A DNA stretch of 48,311 nt from Candidatus Doudnabacteria bacterium (GTDB lineage: Bacteria; Patescibacteriota; Doudnabacteria; UBA920): contig PLYC01000032.1 in NCBI GenBank assembly GCA_003151625.1, forward strand, positions 52,037-100,347, in the 5' to 3' direction. Under the pieces are notes generated by a model, which saw nothing but the letters and a program-made list of their open reading frames with translations, was not told where the DNA came from and searched no databases. A program made the position numbers and the translations under genes. Numbering within the stretch: the stretch's first letter is position 1; every line of letters starts with the position of its first letter. Positions 6,289-12,260 of this stretch are shown one piece after another.

Positions 6289-7983
6289 TTAATGCCCAAA
6301 AAAACCGCGTGCCTCGAAATCCGGCAACATTATCAAACTAATATTATTTTTTACGCAAAATTCCTTTACTTCCCCATCGCGCACCGAACCGGATGTGGCA
6401 AAAATTGCCTTTATGTCGGCGTCGGCTAAAGTTTGCACTCCGTCCACAAAAGGGAAAAAACTGTCGCTGTAAGCAACGGCGTCTTTTATTTTGTGGCCGG
6501 CATCGGTGGCTCGTTTAATGGCCAACTGGCAGCAGCCAACCCTGTCCTGCTGGCCCACGCCGTTGCCAAGCAGCATACCGTCTTTAACTATTGTGACGGT
6601 ATTGCTGTTTGAAGTAGAACCAATTGCCCAGGCTAAAACTAAATCAGTCTTCTGGTTTTTATTAATTTTTTTATCTCCCACAATTTCCGCCTTTTGCAAA
6701 TCCGCGATAAAACTATAATTCGGCTGGGACAAAAATCCGCCGCGCACATAACGGAACCGCCGATGTTGGTCTAGTGAATTTTTTGAAAGTGTTAACAGTG
6801 CCGGATTCACCATAAACCGGCACTTGTCGCCTTTGCGTTTTAACAAATCAATCGCCCCCGATGTAAAAGAAGGTGCAATTATTCCATCAAGTAGCCTTCT
6901 TCCTTTGTCCATTTTGTGCGTCAATAAAACTTCCGCCAATTTTTCGTCAACCGGAAAATTTACCATAACCAAGCCACCAAAAATCGCGCGCAAATCCCCC
7001 TCCAGCATTTTTTTGATTGCTTCCAACGGCTCATCCGTTACCGCCGCGCCGCAAGGGTTTCCATGCTTAACCCCAACAGCTATCATCGGAACGGTCGCGG
7101 AGCTCTCCCCCTTTGGGGGAGATGCCCGAAGGGCAGAGAGGGTGTTCCCATTCACATCAAACCCCGCCGCAATATGCGTTATAGTTTGCAATAGCCTGTC
7201 CACATCCGCCAAATTATTATAGCTTGGGGCCGTTCCGGCCATTACTTTAAACTCGGTCAAAGATAAAGGATCGTGGATAATGGTTTGCTCCCCATATAAC
7301 CCAGCGGGAGCCTGATAAGCGTTCTCTCCATACTTGCAGGTTAAAATTTCTCGAACAACCATACCCTCATATTTCCCGGCGGAATGATACCTAGCCGAAA
7401 CCAAACAATAATCCGCCACTATGGCTTCCGCTTTGGCCGCGAGCGCCGATATAAATTTTCCTTTGTCCGTCTCACCGCTTTTTAACCAACTAATGACAGC
7501 CTTTCTATCATCGGGATCACAAACCACAATCCTTCCCCCCTTTGCCGCACTTCTTAACATTGTTGGCCCGCCAATGTCGGTTTTCTCAATAACCGCGTTC
7601 CTGCCTTCTTCCCTCTCCCTTTGGGAGAGGGCCGGGGTGAGGGTTCCCTGACTCCACTTAGCAATTTCTTCCTGCAAAGGATACAAGTCCACGCAAACCA
7701 AATCTATAAACGGAATTTTCAACTTTTCCAACTCTTCCCGGTCTTCCTTAATGTTACGCGCCAAAAGTCCGGCGTGTACCTCTCTCGACAGCGTCACCAC
7801 CCTGTGCCCCAAAATTGCCCCGCCCCCAACCAAAGACGCCACGTCGGTAACTTTTATTCCTGCAGATGTTAATTCCTTAGCCGTTCCCCCGCTCGCCAAA
7901 ATATTAAAATCCAAAGCAACCAACTCCTTGGCAAAACTAACTATTCCTTCTTTATTGTAAACCGATATTAACGCTGTTTTCAT
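6289..7983 (-). CDS. purH: Bifunctional AICAR transformylase / IMP cyclohydrolase, with two repeat insertions
   Basis: Catalyses the last two steps of IMP synthesis. The N-terminal MGS-like cyclohydrolase domain starts MKTALISVYNKEGIVSFAKE with ILASGGTAKEL. The transformylase domain has CKYGENAYQ (~216) and VKHGNPCGAA (~305), the folate and catalytic Lys-His motif. 564 aa against ~510-530 usually. The excess includes TLTPALSQREREEG (~114-127) and TLSALRASPPKGESS (~281-295), both translated repeat elements. AAAGGAAAT precedes the ATG. Two bases after the GNAT gene, so co-transcribed. Full purine synthesis is often missing in CPR; no other pur gene is in this window. Confidence 0.93.
   Translation of the reverse strand: MKTALISVYNKEGIVSFAKELVALDFNILASGGTAKELTSAGIKVTDVASLVGGGAILGHRVVTLSREVHAGLLARNIKEDREELEKLKIPFIDLVCVDLYPLQEEIAKWSQGTLTPALSQREREEGRNAVIEKTDIGGPTMLRSAAKGGRIVVCDPDDRKAVISWLKSGETDKGKFISALAAKAEAIVADYCLVSARYHSAGKYEGMVVREILTCKYGENAYQAPAGLYGEQTIIHDPLSLTEFKVMAGTAPSYNNLADVDRLLQTITHIAAGFDVNGNTLSALRASPPKGESSATVPMIAVGVKHGNPCGAAVTDEPLEAIKKMLEGDLRAIFGGLVMVNFPVDEKLAEVLLTHKMDKGRRLLDGIIAPSFTSGAIDLLKRKGDKCRFMVNPALLTLSKNSLDQHRRFRYVRGGFLSQPNYSFIADLQKAEIVGDKKINKNQKTDLVLAWAIGSTSNSNTVTIVKDGMLLGNGVGQQDRVGCCQLAIKRATDAGHKIKDAVAYSDSFFPFVDGVQTLADADIKAIFATSGSVRDGEVKEFCVKNNISLIMLPDFEARGFFGH
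7091..7150. repeat. In-frame repeat element inside purH (second)
   Basis: GC-rich imperfect palindrome with 'ctctccccctttgggggagatgc' and 'ccgaagggcagagag' parts, translated as TLSALRASPPKGESS. The same family is found inside the M24 gene (29461-29585), metG, tatD and the ATP-grasp gene. Confidence 0.7.
7597..7650. repeat. In-frame repeat element inside purH (first)
   Basis: 'ccctctccctttgggagagg' palindrome followed by 'gccggggtgagggtt', translated as TLTPALSQREREEG. Short similar flanks (CAGGGAAC and CAGGAAC in the coding sense) may be a target duplication. Confidence 0.7.
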
Positions 7984-9217: not shown

Positions 9218-9259
9218 TTTTGTTGCACTAATGCTCGGCCGAGCATTAGTGCAACAAAA
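9218..9259. repeat. 42-bp perfect palindrome with CGGCCG centre (A)
   Basis: Every base of 9218-9238 pairs with 9239-9259, with no loop. The centre is GCTCGGCCGAGC. It lies between maf and tRNA-Pro. Two further perfect palindromes with the same CGGCCG centre but different arms are at 21225-21266 and 45124-45159. Confidence 0.95.
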
Positions 9260-9273
9260 GTGCAACAAAATAA

Positions 9274-9323: not shown

Positions 9324-9397
9324 CGGGCTGTCGTATACCGGTAGTACGCATGCATGGGGTGCATGTAGACAGGGTTCAATTCCCTGCAGCCCGACCA
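9324..9397 (+). tRNA. tRNA-Pro (GGG)
   Basis: Complete cloverleaf: acceptor CGGGCTG/CAGCCCG, anticodon stem CATGC/GCATG with loop ATGGGGT (anticodon GGG), T arm CAGGG-TTCAATT-CCCTG, discriminator A and encoded CCA. Confidence 0.93.
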
Positions 9398-9732: not shown

Positions 9733-9906
9733 TTATTTTCCCTTTTTTGTTGCTCTATCGAGTCTACGAAGCTCTTTTCGTACCTTCTTCCTGTCGCCCT
9801 TGTGGGCTATGGAGGACGGATCGATTTCCCTTCCGTGAGCGTAGCTTTCCGCTACGTTTGCCCGAAGACGCTCGTGAGCTAATCCTCCTGACCGTTTCTT
9901 CGCCAT
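9733..9906 (-). CDS. Orphan basic mini-protein, 57 aa
   Basis: Start ATG at complement 9904-9906, with AGGGGGTGG eight bases upstream. The product begins MAKKRSGGLAHERLRANVAE and ends in KVRKELRRLDRATKKGK. It is strongly basic (Lys/Arg about one quarter), has no Cys and no membrane segment, and its two charged helical stretches suggest nucleic-acid binding, which is only inference. It is followed by a branched RNA/terminator element and preceded by the long hairpin that ends the next mini-gene. Family not recognised. Confidence 0.55.
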   Translation of the reverse strand: MAKKRSGGLAHERLRANVAESYAHGREIDPSSIAHKGDRKKVRKELRRLDRATKKGK

Positions 9907-10001
9907 CGATTTTACCACCCCCTGATTCTTTCTTCTTTCATTCCAACTGCAAAACTTAGTCCAAAATTTTAGGCTAAATTTTGTGGTTATAACTTCTTTA
10001 T

Positions 10002-10106
10002 AAAAACTGCGGCCGGAAGGAAATCGCAGTTCGACTTGTTTTGCGCGGCACTTATACTCTAAAAAGAGATTGCCTATTTTAGTCGAACTTTGATTTCCAA
10101 CCGGCC
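10002..10106 (-). terminator. Very long hairpin terminator with two symmetric 2x2 internal loops
   Basis: GGCCGG, aa, GGAAATC, gc, AGTTCGACT (10011-10036) pairs with AGTCGAACT, tt, GATTTCC, aa, CCGGCC (10081-10106): 22 paired bases interrupted by two 2x2 internal loops. The 44-nt loop holds a small hairpin, CTCT/AGAG, inside GGCA/TGCC. On the minus strand the hairpin is followed by GCAGTTTTT. It lies ten bases after the stop of mini-gene 10116-10340. Confidence 0.65.
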
Positions 10107-10115
10107 TTGTGCTAA

Positions 10116-10340
10116 CTAGCCCGGCAGCGCATACATAAGGTCACGACGGTCGTGTGCCTCCGGAAAACCCATTCCTACAAAAAGGGAACGAAGCGCTTTG
10201 CGCTCCCTCTCGGTCTGTACTGCCGCTAACACCTTTACATCTTTCTGATGCCGCTTTTCATGTCTTGCACGGCATTTGGCGATTGAATTCGCCTCTGGTG
10301 CAGGCACCGGGGGAACCGGTGCGGCCTCACTACTCTGCAT
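10116..10340 (-). CDS. Orphan mini-protein, 74 aa
   Basis: ATG at complement 10338-10340 with TAGGAGG eight bases upstream. The N-terminus is Pro/Ala-rich (AAPVPPVPAPEAN). The rest is charged and helical (KCRARHEKRHQKDVKVL, TERERKALRSLFVGMGF). No membrane segment, no recognised domain. Upstream, on the same strand, lies a ~730-nt ORF-poor structured region headed by a near-consensus promoter; downstream is a very long hairpin. GC-richer than its surroundings. Function unknown. Confidence 0.55.
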   Translation of the reverse strand: MQSSEAAPVPPVPAPEANSIAKCRARHEKRHQKDVKVLAAVQTERERKALRSLFVGMGFPEAHDRRDLMYALPG

Positions 10341-11076
10341 TTCAACATCCTCCTAAAGTTGGCCGCTTCGCCTTCTTAATTTGCTATGCGGCTTCGCTGA
10401 TTTTAGAAACAATCCATTTTAGCACTCTCGGCCAAAAGAGGGACTGCCCCATCTTCACCCACTTTGCAAGTGAGTACTTCTCGCCACATAGCAGCGGCGA
10501 AGACTGACGGGCAGGGTGACTGAAGAACGATTCCCTCAGAAACTTTTACAAAAGCAGGTGAGCTTTTGTCTGCCCAAACTTTGGGGTGGTACTTCGAGCA
10601 TTCGGCTCGGTTCCTAAGTAGCTTCGAAAGCTCAAATGGTTTGCGCCAGTAATTACTGGACGCGGGATGCAAACCAATTCGAGGCCATCAAAGCCTGCCT
10701 ATCCCTTACTTAAGGGACACCCAACTCTTTGGATAAACCAAAAAAAATTTCTTCGGATAACCGAAGTTTGATGGCTTGGCCATCAAAATAAATTTTTTCT
10801 TGTCTGTCCGGGAAACTGCATCGAAAGGTTAAAAAATTCGGTGCAAATCCACGGACAGAAATGTTTTTTAAAAGAACTCCGCTTTGGCCTAAAATAATAC
10901 CTAGCCTGTATGTAGGGCTAGGTTTGGTATCTGTTTTGATTGCTTTTTACTTTCAGTTACCTTTTAGCCCTATATTTTTGCATCCAAAGAATGCTCTTTG
11001 TAAAAGAGACCGGGAGGACAATAACAATGGAGCAAAAATTCCTGTTCATAATGTATTACTAAACTAATACGTAACT
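10341..11076 (-). ncRNA. Long structured leader or large non-coding RNA candidate
   Basis: About 735 bases without a convincing gene, downstream of a near-consensus minus-strand promoter and upstream of the mini-gene at 10340. Many helices can be seen: TCTGTCCG/CGGACAGA enclosing TGCATCGAA/TTCGGTGCA (10802-10859); GGTTTGC/GCAAACC enclosing CCAGTAATTACTGG (about 10639-10676); CTTCGG/CCGAAG; CCCTT/AAGGG; CAAAAGC/GCTTTTG; CTGCCC/GGGCAG. Two GGCCATCAAA copies compete for one TTTGATGGC (10681-10797), a switch-like arrangement. I cannot assign it to a known RNA family, and an origin on the plus strand is not excluded. Confidence 0.45.
11027..11062 (+). CDS. Possible 11-aa ORF with SD
   Basis: ATG at 11027 preceded by GGGAGGA at 11012-11018; encodes MEQKFLFIMYY. 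It runs against the strong promoter at 11083-11110, so it may be chance. Reported only because of the good SD. Confidence 0.2.
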   Translation: MEQKFLFIMYY

Positions 11077-11082
11077 GCCTAA

Positions 11083-11110
11083 AGTATAACAGTATTAAAA
11101 CGAATGTCAA
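11083..11110 (-). promoter_or_regulatory. Near-consensus promoter of the structured leader / 74-aa mini-gene
   Basis: TTGACA (complement 11105-11110), 16-bp spacer, TATACT (complement 11083-11088). The first ORF with an SD downstream is the 74-aa mini-gene, about 735 nt away. Confidence 0.75.
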
Positions 11111-11264: not shown

Positions 11265-12260
11265 TCAAACCGTCAGGTACCCAACATCTCCGGAAAGCTT
11301 TTCCGCGGCCATTTTGTGGATGAGTTCGCTAAGTTCTTCGTCGCTAAAAAATTCTATGGTAATTTTTCCGCCCTGACCCTGACGGGAAATTTTAACCTGG
11401 GTACCGAGCTTGCCGCGCAGTTCGCTTTCCATAGCCAAAAGTTTGGGGTCAGGCGCGGCGGAATCCATTTGCCGCTTGGTCATAAGCTCGCGGACTTTGC
11501 TTTCCACCTGCCGGACATTTAAGTTTTGGTCTATAACCACTTTATACATCAACAGCATTTTTTCCGGATCGTTCAAACCCAGCAAGGCTCTGGCATGGCC
11601 TTCCATTAGTTTGCCTTCTATAACCGCTCGCTGAATTTCCGCGGGCAGGTTAAGCAAGCGGACAGTATTGGCCACGGCCGGACGCGATTTACCGACTTTT
11701 TTGGCAACCTGATCTTGAGTTAGATTAAACGTCTTCATTAGACGCTCGTAAGCCTGGGCTTCTTCTATGGGATTTAATTCCTGGCGCTGAATGTTTTCGA
11801 TTAACGCAACTTCCAACTTGGTCTGGTCGACCATCGATTCCTTAATAATTGCCGGGACCTTGTCTAAACCCGCCAATTGCGAGGCTCTAAAGCGCCGCTC
11901 CCCCACGACAATTTCATAACCTACGGCCGTTTTGGTAACCACCAACGGCTGAATAACGCCGTGTTCTTTTATGGAGTCGGCCAACTCCCGAAGCGCCGCC
12001 GGTTCAAATACCTTTCTGGGCTGAAACGGATTTGGGGAAATTTTAACGACTTCTATTTCCTGAATATGCGCGTCGGCATAAGAGACTTTTTCAGGATCGG
12101 GCGCGGCATTAACCAATGCCGGCACGACCGCTAAATCCTGCAATACCGAGGTGGCGGGCAAAGACGGAGCATTAGTAGATGCCGCCGTGCCAATTTGCGG
12201 CGCGGCAAAAGAATCCAAAGATTGAATTGTAATGTTGGGCTGGGGAAAATTGTTGTCCAT
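11265..12260 (-). CDS. parB: Chromosome-partitioning protein ParB
   Basis: 331 aa. A disordered, Ala/Pro-rich N-terminus of about 65 residues precedes the ParB/Srx domain: EIEVVKISPNPFQPRKVFE, IQPLVVTK, the CTP-binding GERRFRASQLAGL and LIENIQRQELNPIEEA. A helix-turn-helix follows (LTQDQVAKKVGKSRPAVANTVRLLNLP), then a C-terminal dimerisation region. ParB clamps spread from parS to organise origin segregation. No parA partner lies in the window and I saw no 16-bp parS palindrome. No SD: the start is preceded by AAAATAAAACAGTTT. Confidence 0.93.
   Translation of the reverse strand: MDNNFPQPNITIQSLDSFAAPQIGTAASTNAPSLPATSVLQDLAVVPALVNAAPDPEKVSYADAHIQEIEVVKISPNPFQPRKVFEPAALRELADSIKEHGVIQPLVVTKTAVGYEIVVGERRFRASQLAGLDKVPAIIKESMVDQTKLEVALIENIQRQELNPIEEAQAYERLMKTFNLTQDQVAKKVGKSRPAVANTVRLLNLPAEIQRAVIEGKLMEGHARALLGLNDPEKMLLMYKVVIDQNLNVRQVESKVRELMTKRQMDSAAPDPKLLAMESELRGKLGTQVKISRQGQGGKITIEFFSDEELSELIHKMAAEKLSGDVGYLTV

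Follow-up and report, generated by a model that had tools for sequence, protein, structure and literature searches.

A leader locus between parB and tRNA-Pro

The 48,311-nt stretch of DNA analysed here (the window) comes from a 1.5-Mb Doudnabacteria genome in 34 contigs. Between parB on one side and tRNA-Pro(GGG) on the other, its minus strand carries a near-consensus promoter, a short leader ORF whose last codons enter a predicted antiterminator/terminator switch, a highly structured spacer and two small genes (Table 1). The promoter, a helix-dense strand of ~735 nt, the 74-aa mini-gene and a 22-bp-stem terminator had been recognized in an initial annotation and are all in place. That annotation overlooked the leader ORF, which starts 33 nt past the −10 box, and a terminator nearer to the promoter than the 22-bp-stem one, with a stem spanning 10923-10899. 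Its description of the region as ORF-poor holds for 10890-10346 only.

Table 1 Features of the parB-flanking leader locus, in the direction of minus-strand transcription where applicable
Feature	Position	Strand	Remarks
parB	11265-12260	minus	Flanks the leader locus on one side
DnaA-box-like 9-mer TGTGGATAA	11174..11182	minus	63 nt upstream of −35; putative function
Promoter TTGACA-N16-TATACT	11083..11110	minus	TTGACA 11110-11105, TATACT 11088-11083; read directly in the sequence
Leader ORF, 30 aa, MNRNFCSIVIVLPVSFTKSILWMQKYRAKR	10957..11049	minus	No Shine-Dalgarno seen; similar leaders in 14/22 family genomes
Hairpin within leader ORF, possible pause hairpin	10993..11010	minus	Fold; similar mid-ORF hairpins in relatives by eye
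Segment 2 (AGGGCTA), antiterminator 5′ arm, in last leader-ORF codons	10965..10971	minus	
Segment 3 (TAGCCCT), common to antiterminator and terminator	10914..10920	minus	
Attenuator terminator ACCTAGCC[CTACATACA]GGCTAGGT then ATTATTTT	10891..10923	minus	0/200 dinucleotide shuffles as good
Highly structured spacer RNA	10346..10890	minus	z −11.7 versus 40 shuffles
Bulged hairpin A, common to G002	10803..10859	minus	Of 19 compared pairs, 12 unchanged, 6 changed on both sides, 1 on one side only, none broken
74-aa ORF	10116..10340	minus	AGGAGG at 10354-10349, 8 nt before ATG; no clear homologue found
22-bp-stem terminator after 74-aa ORF	10002..10106	minus	Stem folds with 6+7+9 = 22 pairs
Hairpin module before second small ORF, common to G009, weaker in G016	9941..9991	minus	Match values in text
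Second small basic ORF, 57 aa from ATG	9733..9906	minus	No Pfam match
tRNA-Pro(GGG)	9324-9397	plus	Flanks the locus on the other side

The leader recurs behind parB across the family

With the full 770 nt as query, a DNA search of 97 other genomes brought up no relative; relatives surfaced only by sensitive comparison of parB-flanking loci. parB was found in 20 of the 22 family genomes, and the stretch behind it was examined in 19 genomes besides the window's own. Promoter and leader were present together in 14 loci, the window included (G000, G001, G002, G004, G005, G006, G007, G008, G009, G011, G012, G015, G016 and G021), and the leader was absent behind parB in G010, G013, G014, G017 and G020; among the remaining family genomes, the contig of G003 ends inside parB and two lack a ParB match. 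In each of the 14 loci a TTGAC-type promoter precedes a putative leader ORF that follows it directly, the leaders measuring 22-35 aa across the family loci. A leader profile matched 14 of the 22 family genomes at E ≤ 1.3e-6, with one match per genome, always in the stretch flanking parB. These matches arise by construction, since the profile derives from the same 14 leaders, which DNA similarity and reading behind parB had first brought to light. The profile search returned no match of that strength in the order's other 27 genomes or elsewhere among 379 genomes of the phylum; three weak matches among the latter (E 0.002-0.008) were rejected, since by eye they showed no leader plus terminator.

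A second leader lies farther down in four loci (G002, G011, G015 and G016), and G004 has an additional one elsewhere in its genome (G004:C17; L076 1-3066, reverse; L144 is the same place as L076), where leader plus terminator precede a 162-aa protein with no Pfam or PHROGs match. Among 13 loci examined in a second profile search, ATG, stop and terminator occurred together only in G004:C17. Upstream of that leader is a LuxR-like small gene.

Leader peptides are similar across genera. In 14 leaders (class a) the two other frames are interrupted by 27 and 31 stops over 393 codons each, and neither is open in any of them, so the openness of the leader frame, which in these 14 holds by construction, does not come cheaply here. 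Within the two pairs of leaders that are most alike, third codon positions account for 13 of the 23 nucleotide differences (7/11 and 6/12). Reading revealed no clear Shine-Dalgarno site before the leaders, whereas the downstream genes have them. The reading frame of the second-copy leader L035b is doubtful. In L032, L034, L038 and L043 the leader ATG lies only ~10 nt past the −10 box, and their transcripts may be nearly leaderless.

Overlapping antiterminator and terminator pairings at the leader end

At the end of the leader ORF, segment 2 is complementary to segment 3, which overlaps the 5′ arm of the terminator. We scored such arrangements as the best terminator after a stop codon plus the best helix that uses the same 5′ arm with a partner near the stop. 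Under a relaxed rule, a U-tract of four T applied equally to the stop-codon control, all 18 leaders reached −24 kcal/mol or lower, as did 164 of 3,000 random genomic stop codons, and 12 of the 18 reached −30 kcal/mol (41 of 3,000 in the control). The second-locus leader of G004 scored −22.4, outside the −24 limit; 394 of 3,000 controls reach −20. With a stricter U-tract rule and 200 shuffles each, no more than 1% of shuffles did as well as the leader in 14 of 18 cases, and 3% did so for L041; L031 received no score, and L034 and L043 were no different from shuffles. These three, whose U-tracts have only four T, were recovered only under the relaxed rule.

By reading, at least ten distinct segment-2/3 sequences occur, each still complementary; the arms include AGGGCTA, GGGATTTGG, TAGGGTTTTGGT, GCGGGGT, TTGGGTG, GGGGCAG, TGGGCT, GGGGCA, CGCGGG and GGTGGA, among others. 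The arms change yet every one keeps its partner, which is, on the predicted pairings, a three-way compensatory pattern. These counts were not taken from a MAFFT alignment of the leaders, in which the arms were out of place, and the loops are too variable among leaders for a covariance model. In most leaders a candidate extra helix can form between the early part of the ORF and segment 2, recalling the classical four-segment design. The first 207 nt alone are not unusually stable (fold z −1.8), which is no argument against a switch, because two competing folds may look ordinary by free energy.

A structured untranslated RNA with ordinary intrinsic terminators and accidental leader ORFs might give a similar picture, such pairings being not rare in these genomes, as the random stop codons reaching −24 show; set against the whole set of leaders reaching that score, peptides alike across genera and two closed alternative frames, this account is highly improbable. 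The loci combine leader ORFs, overlapping and mutually exclusive pairings at the ORF end in the leaders scored, pairings kept despite sequence change and a fixed genomic position, and the predicted anatomy of a ribosome-mediated transcription attenuator is well supported. The region is probably the 5′ leader of a small-gene operon under ribosome-mediated transcription attenuation, and from it we infer transcription, translation, stalling and the direction in which the switch responds. RNA polymerase would start near 11076 and a ribosome would translate the 30-codon leader. On reaching the stop codon, the ribosome would cover segment 2, segment 3 would pair with segment 4 and transcription would end near 10891; a stall over the Ile/Val-containing middle codons would instead leave segment 2 free for 2:3 pairing and allow read-through into the spacer and the small genes led by Shine-Dalgarno sites. 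The response would be a small stress operon.

A structured spacer leads into small, mostly unrelated genes

The ~735-nt strand folds at −252.8 kcal/mol compared with −196.2 kcal/mol for shuffled sequences (z −9.56, 0 of 20 shuffles as good), and this signal resides in 10890-10346. Structure returns in the non-coding sequence that follows the 74-aa gene (z −5.0) and the second small gene (z −6.9), and all 13 spacer stretches of eight relatives, chosen rather than comprising every gap, are structured too (z −3.3 to −10.5). Spacers are about 80 to 540 nt long and share almost no sequence similarity, and both length and sequence differ even within a genus. Hairpin A, paired through the folds of the window and G002 rather than through a two-sequence alignment of the spacer start, has nearly the same bulge pattern in both. 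The module before the second ORF matches G009 at 91% over 43 nt (E 8.8e-11) and G016 at E 1.3e-5 in a search among spacers only, and it recurs in different genera with differing ORFs after it. Together, hairpin A and this recurrent hairpin point to selection on the predicted fold. Covariation among relatives is pairwise and concerns one hairpin (A) in two genomes; the spacers form no alignable set. The words of a competing-stem switch proposed earlier for the region are present (GGCCATCAAA twice on the plus strand, and TTTGATGGC); reading the sequence and fold of G002 revealed no such switch there.

For the 74-aa protein, Pfam gave nothing above cut-off and PHROGs no match; among 48 other genomes, two have weak matches to it (G016, E 0.006, on a contig other than that of its parB; G018, E 0.22). 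Small ORFs with Shine-Dalgarno-like sites follow in the loci not cut by a contig end. At least one small ORF with a CxxC motif occurs in 9 of the 14 loci and none in the window, G004, G011, G015 or G021, the last on a contig that ends early. Most of the small ORFs listed are unrelated to one another, with only two pairs similar at E < 0.01, and those of the relatives gave sub-threshold Pfam matches only, several of them to zinc-ribbon families.

The spacer could itself be the product, a large ornate non-coding RNA of the GOLLD/ROOL/OLE kind whose synthesis the attenuator controls, with the small ORFs as passengers. The strong folding in the window and its relatives would suit this, as would the changes on both sides that maintain hairpin A in G002 and a hairpin module shared across genera in front of differing ORFs. 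We nevertheless consider it rather unlikely: the spacer lacks an Rfam match, its length and sequence are scarcely kept, and ORFs led by Shine-Dalgarno sites follow wherever the contig continues. An Rfam scan at gathering and permissive thresholds returned only tRNAs and chance matches; the likeness to large ornate RNAs proposed in the initial annotation, which had matched the RNA to no family, found no counterpart there. Of its two suggestions, the structured leader stands, with a 5′ part that has the predicted anatomy of a translated attenuator, and an ornate RNA is not established.

Candidate signals for the attenuator

Isoleucine is the commonest amino acid in residues 2-17 of 18 leaders (36 of 286, 1.7-fold over six window proteins); threonine and serine are raised 2.3-fold and 1.9-fold over the same proteins, Asp and Glu do not occur and Gly is nearly absent. 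The Ile excess follows partly from the G-poor mRNA, besides any codon need. Four Ile codons stand near the end of one second-copy leader, L043b (MKCVQNSSIIIITP), the only one with such a row, and its IIIITP before the stop looks, by analogy, like a textbook control run.

An ilv-type attenuator of branched-chain synthesis was considered and rejected. No amino-acid biosynthesis gene lies downstream of the leader, where other small ORFs are found, and IlvC (PF01450) was detected in 0 of 22 family genomes but in all 14 control genomes. The switch is therefore not tied to Ile/Val synthesis, an Ile-sensing reading goes without the pathway that normally accompanies it, and if Ile is sensed, it would be as a sign of starvation. 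Most likely the signal is slow decoding or a shortage of charged tRNA, with Ile/Val slightly favoured.

The most constant leader residue is not Ile but Lys in a KAV-like motif, which argues for a constraint on the peptide or on the hairpin. It is conceivable, if somewhat doubtful, that the leader encodes an arrest peptide or senses translation stress in general, such as antibiotic-induced stalling, rather than an amino acid; this would fit the Lys of the K-A/G/S-V-like motif, which varies least across 15 leaders, the one at the second locus of G004 among them. By reading, however, these codons also make up an arm of the hairpin in the middle of the ORF, and an RNA constraint can explain the motif. 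We place sensing of amino acids or tRNA charging about level with, and slightly ahead of, nascent-peptide arrest.

Relation to known systems

Leader-peptide attenuation is a textbook mode of regulating biosynthesis operons. The Doudnabacteria loci resemble the trp/ilv/thr/leu/phe attenuators (for example PMC1262725) in having a short leader ORF just after the promoter, a stop codon beside the segment-2 arm, a 2:3 antiterminator opposed to a 3:4 terminator, and a hydrophobic, Ile/Val-containing leader. They differ from these attenuators in that no amino-acid biosynthesis operon lies downstream and IlvC was not found in the family; in leaders without a visible Shine-Dalgarno site, some of which start about 10 nt past the −10 box; and in the fast-evolving structured spacer, followed by small, mostly unrelated genes. 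With GOLLD, ROOL and OLE (PMC12286853), the spacer shares a long, helix-dense intergenic RNA; unlike them, it has no Rfam match, leads into ORFs with Shine-Dalgarno sites and has conservation of pairing seen in local hairpins rather than in a global fold.

The attenuator anatomy is conserved in bacteria with reduced genomes and no IlvC found, in front of unnamed genes. This makes it possible to ask, in testable form, how such bacteria detect starvation or trouble in translation, and what makes the RNA and proteins that follow a conserved switch evolve so fast. A more speculative reading, which we consider rather unlikely, is that Doudnabacteria, in which no branched-chain synthesis was found, have converted an attenuator of the amino-acid type into a switch for translation stress. 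Such a switch would release a quickly evolving ornate RNA along with small Zn-ribbon-like proteins particular to the lineage; if this is true, the stretch behind parB would hold, in a fixed place, a new kind of stress-response locus. That a conserved switch should be combined with RNA and small proteins that change quickly in bacteria of this sort appears new to us, and a search of a paper library for work on leader peptides or structured RNA in the Candidate Phyla Radiation, Patescibacteria, Doudnabacteria or uncultured bacteria listed nothing relevant.

Upstream box and neighbouring elements

A DnaA-box-like TGTGGAWAA stands 5-6 nt before the −35 element in nine relatives, exact in L031, L032, L033, L034, L036, L038 and L039 and with one mismatch in L041 and L043; in the window and L035 the 9-mer lies farther upstream of the promoter. 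The pattern TGTGGAWAA-N4-7-TTGAC has matches in 30 of 49 genomes, compared with two matches for a reversed control pattern, but it also precedes many other genes and was rejected as a locus-specific signal. The layout of box and promoter recurs at other promoters of the order, including that of what we take to be a LexA-like gene, 'DnaA box' being likewise our presumed name for the 9-mer.

Proximity to tRNAs, to which the initial annotation had pointed, carries little weight, because the orientation of tRNA-Pro relative to the locus differs among relatives, being convergent in the window and some of them and parallel in others. Between maf and tRNA-Pro lies a perfect inverted repeat, TTTTGTTGCACTAATGCTCGG/CCGAGCATTAGTGCAACAAAA (window 9218-9260), a possible two-way terminator and one of the chance matches in the Rfam scan. 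Farther along the window, a purH-like ORF (6289-7983) contains the in-frame stretch TLTPALSQREREEG, which resembles what is presumably a type of repeat-derived insertion known from other bacteria.
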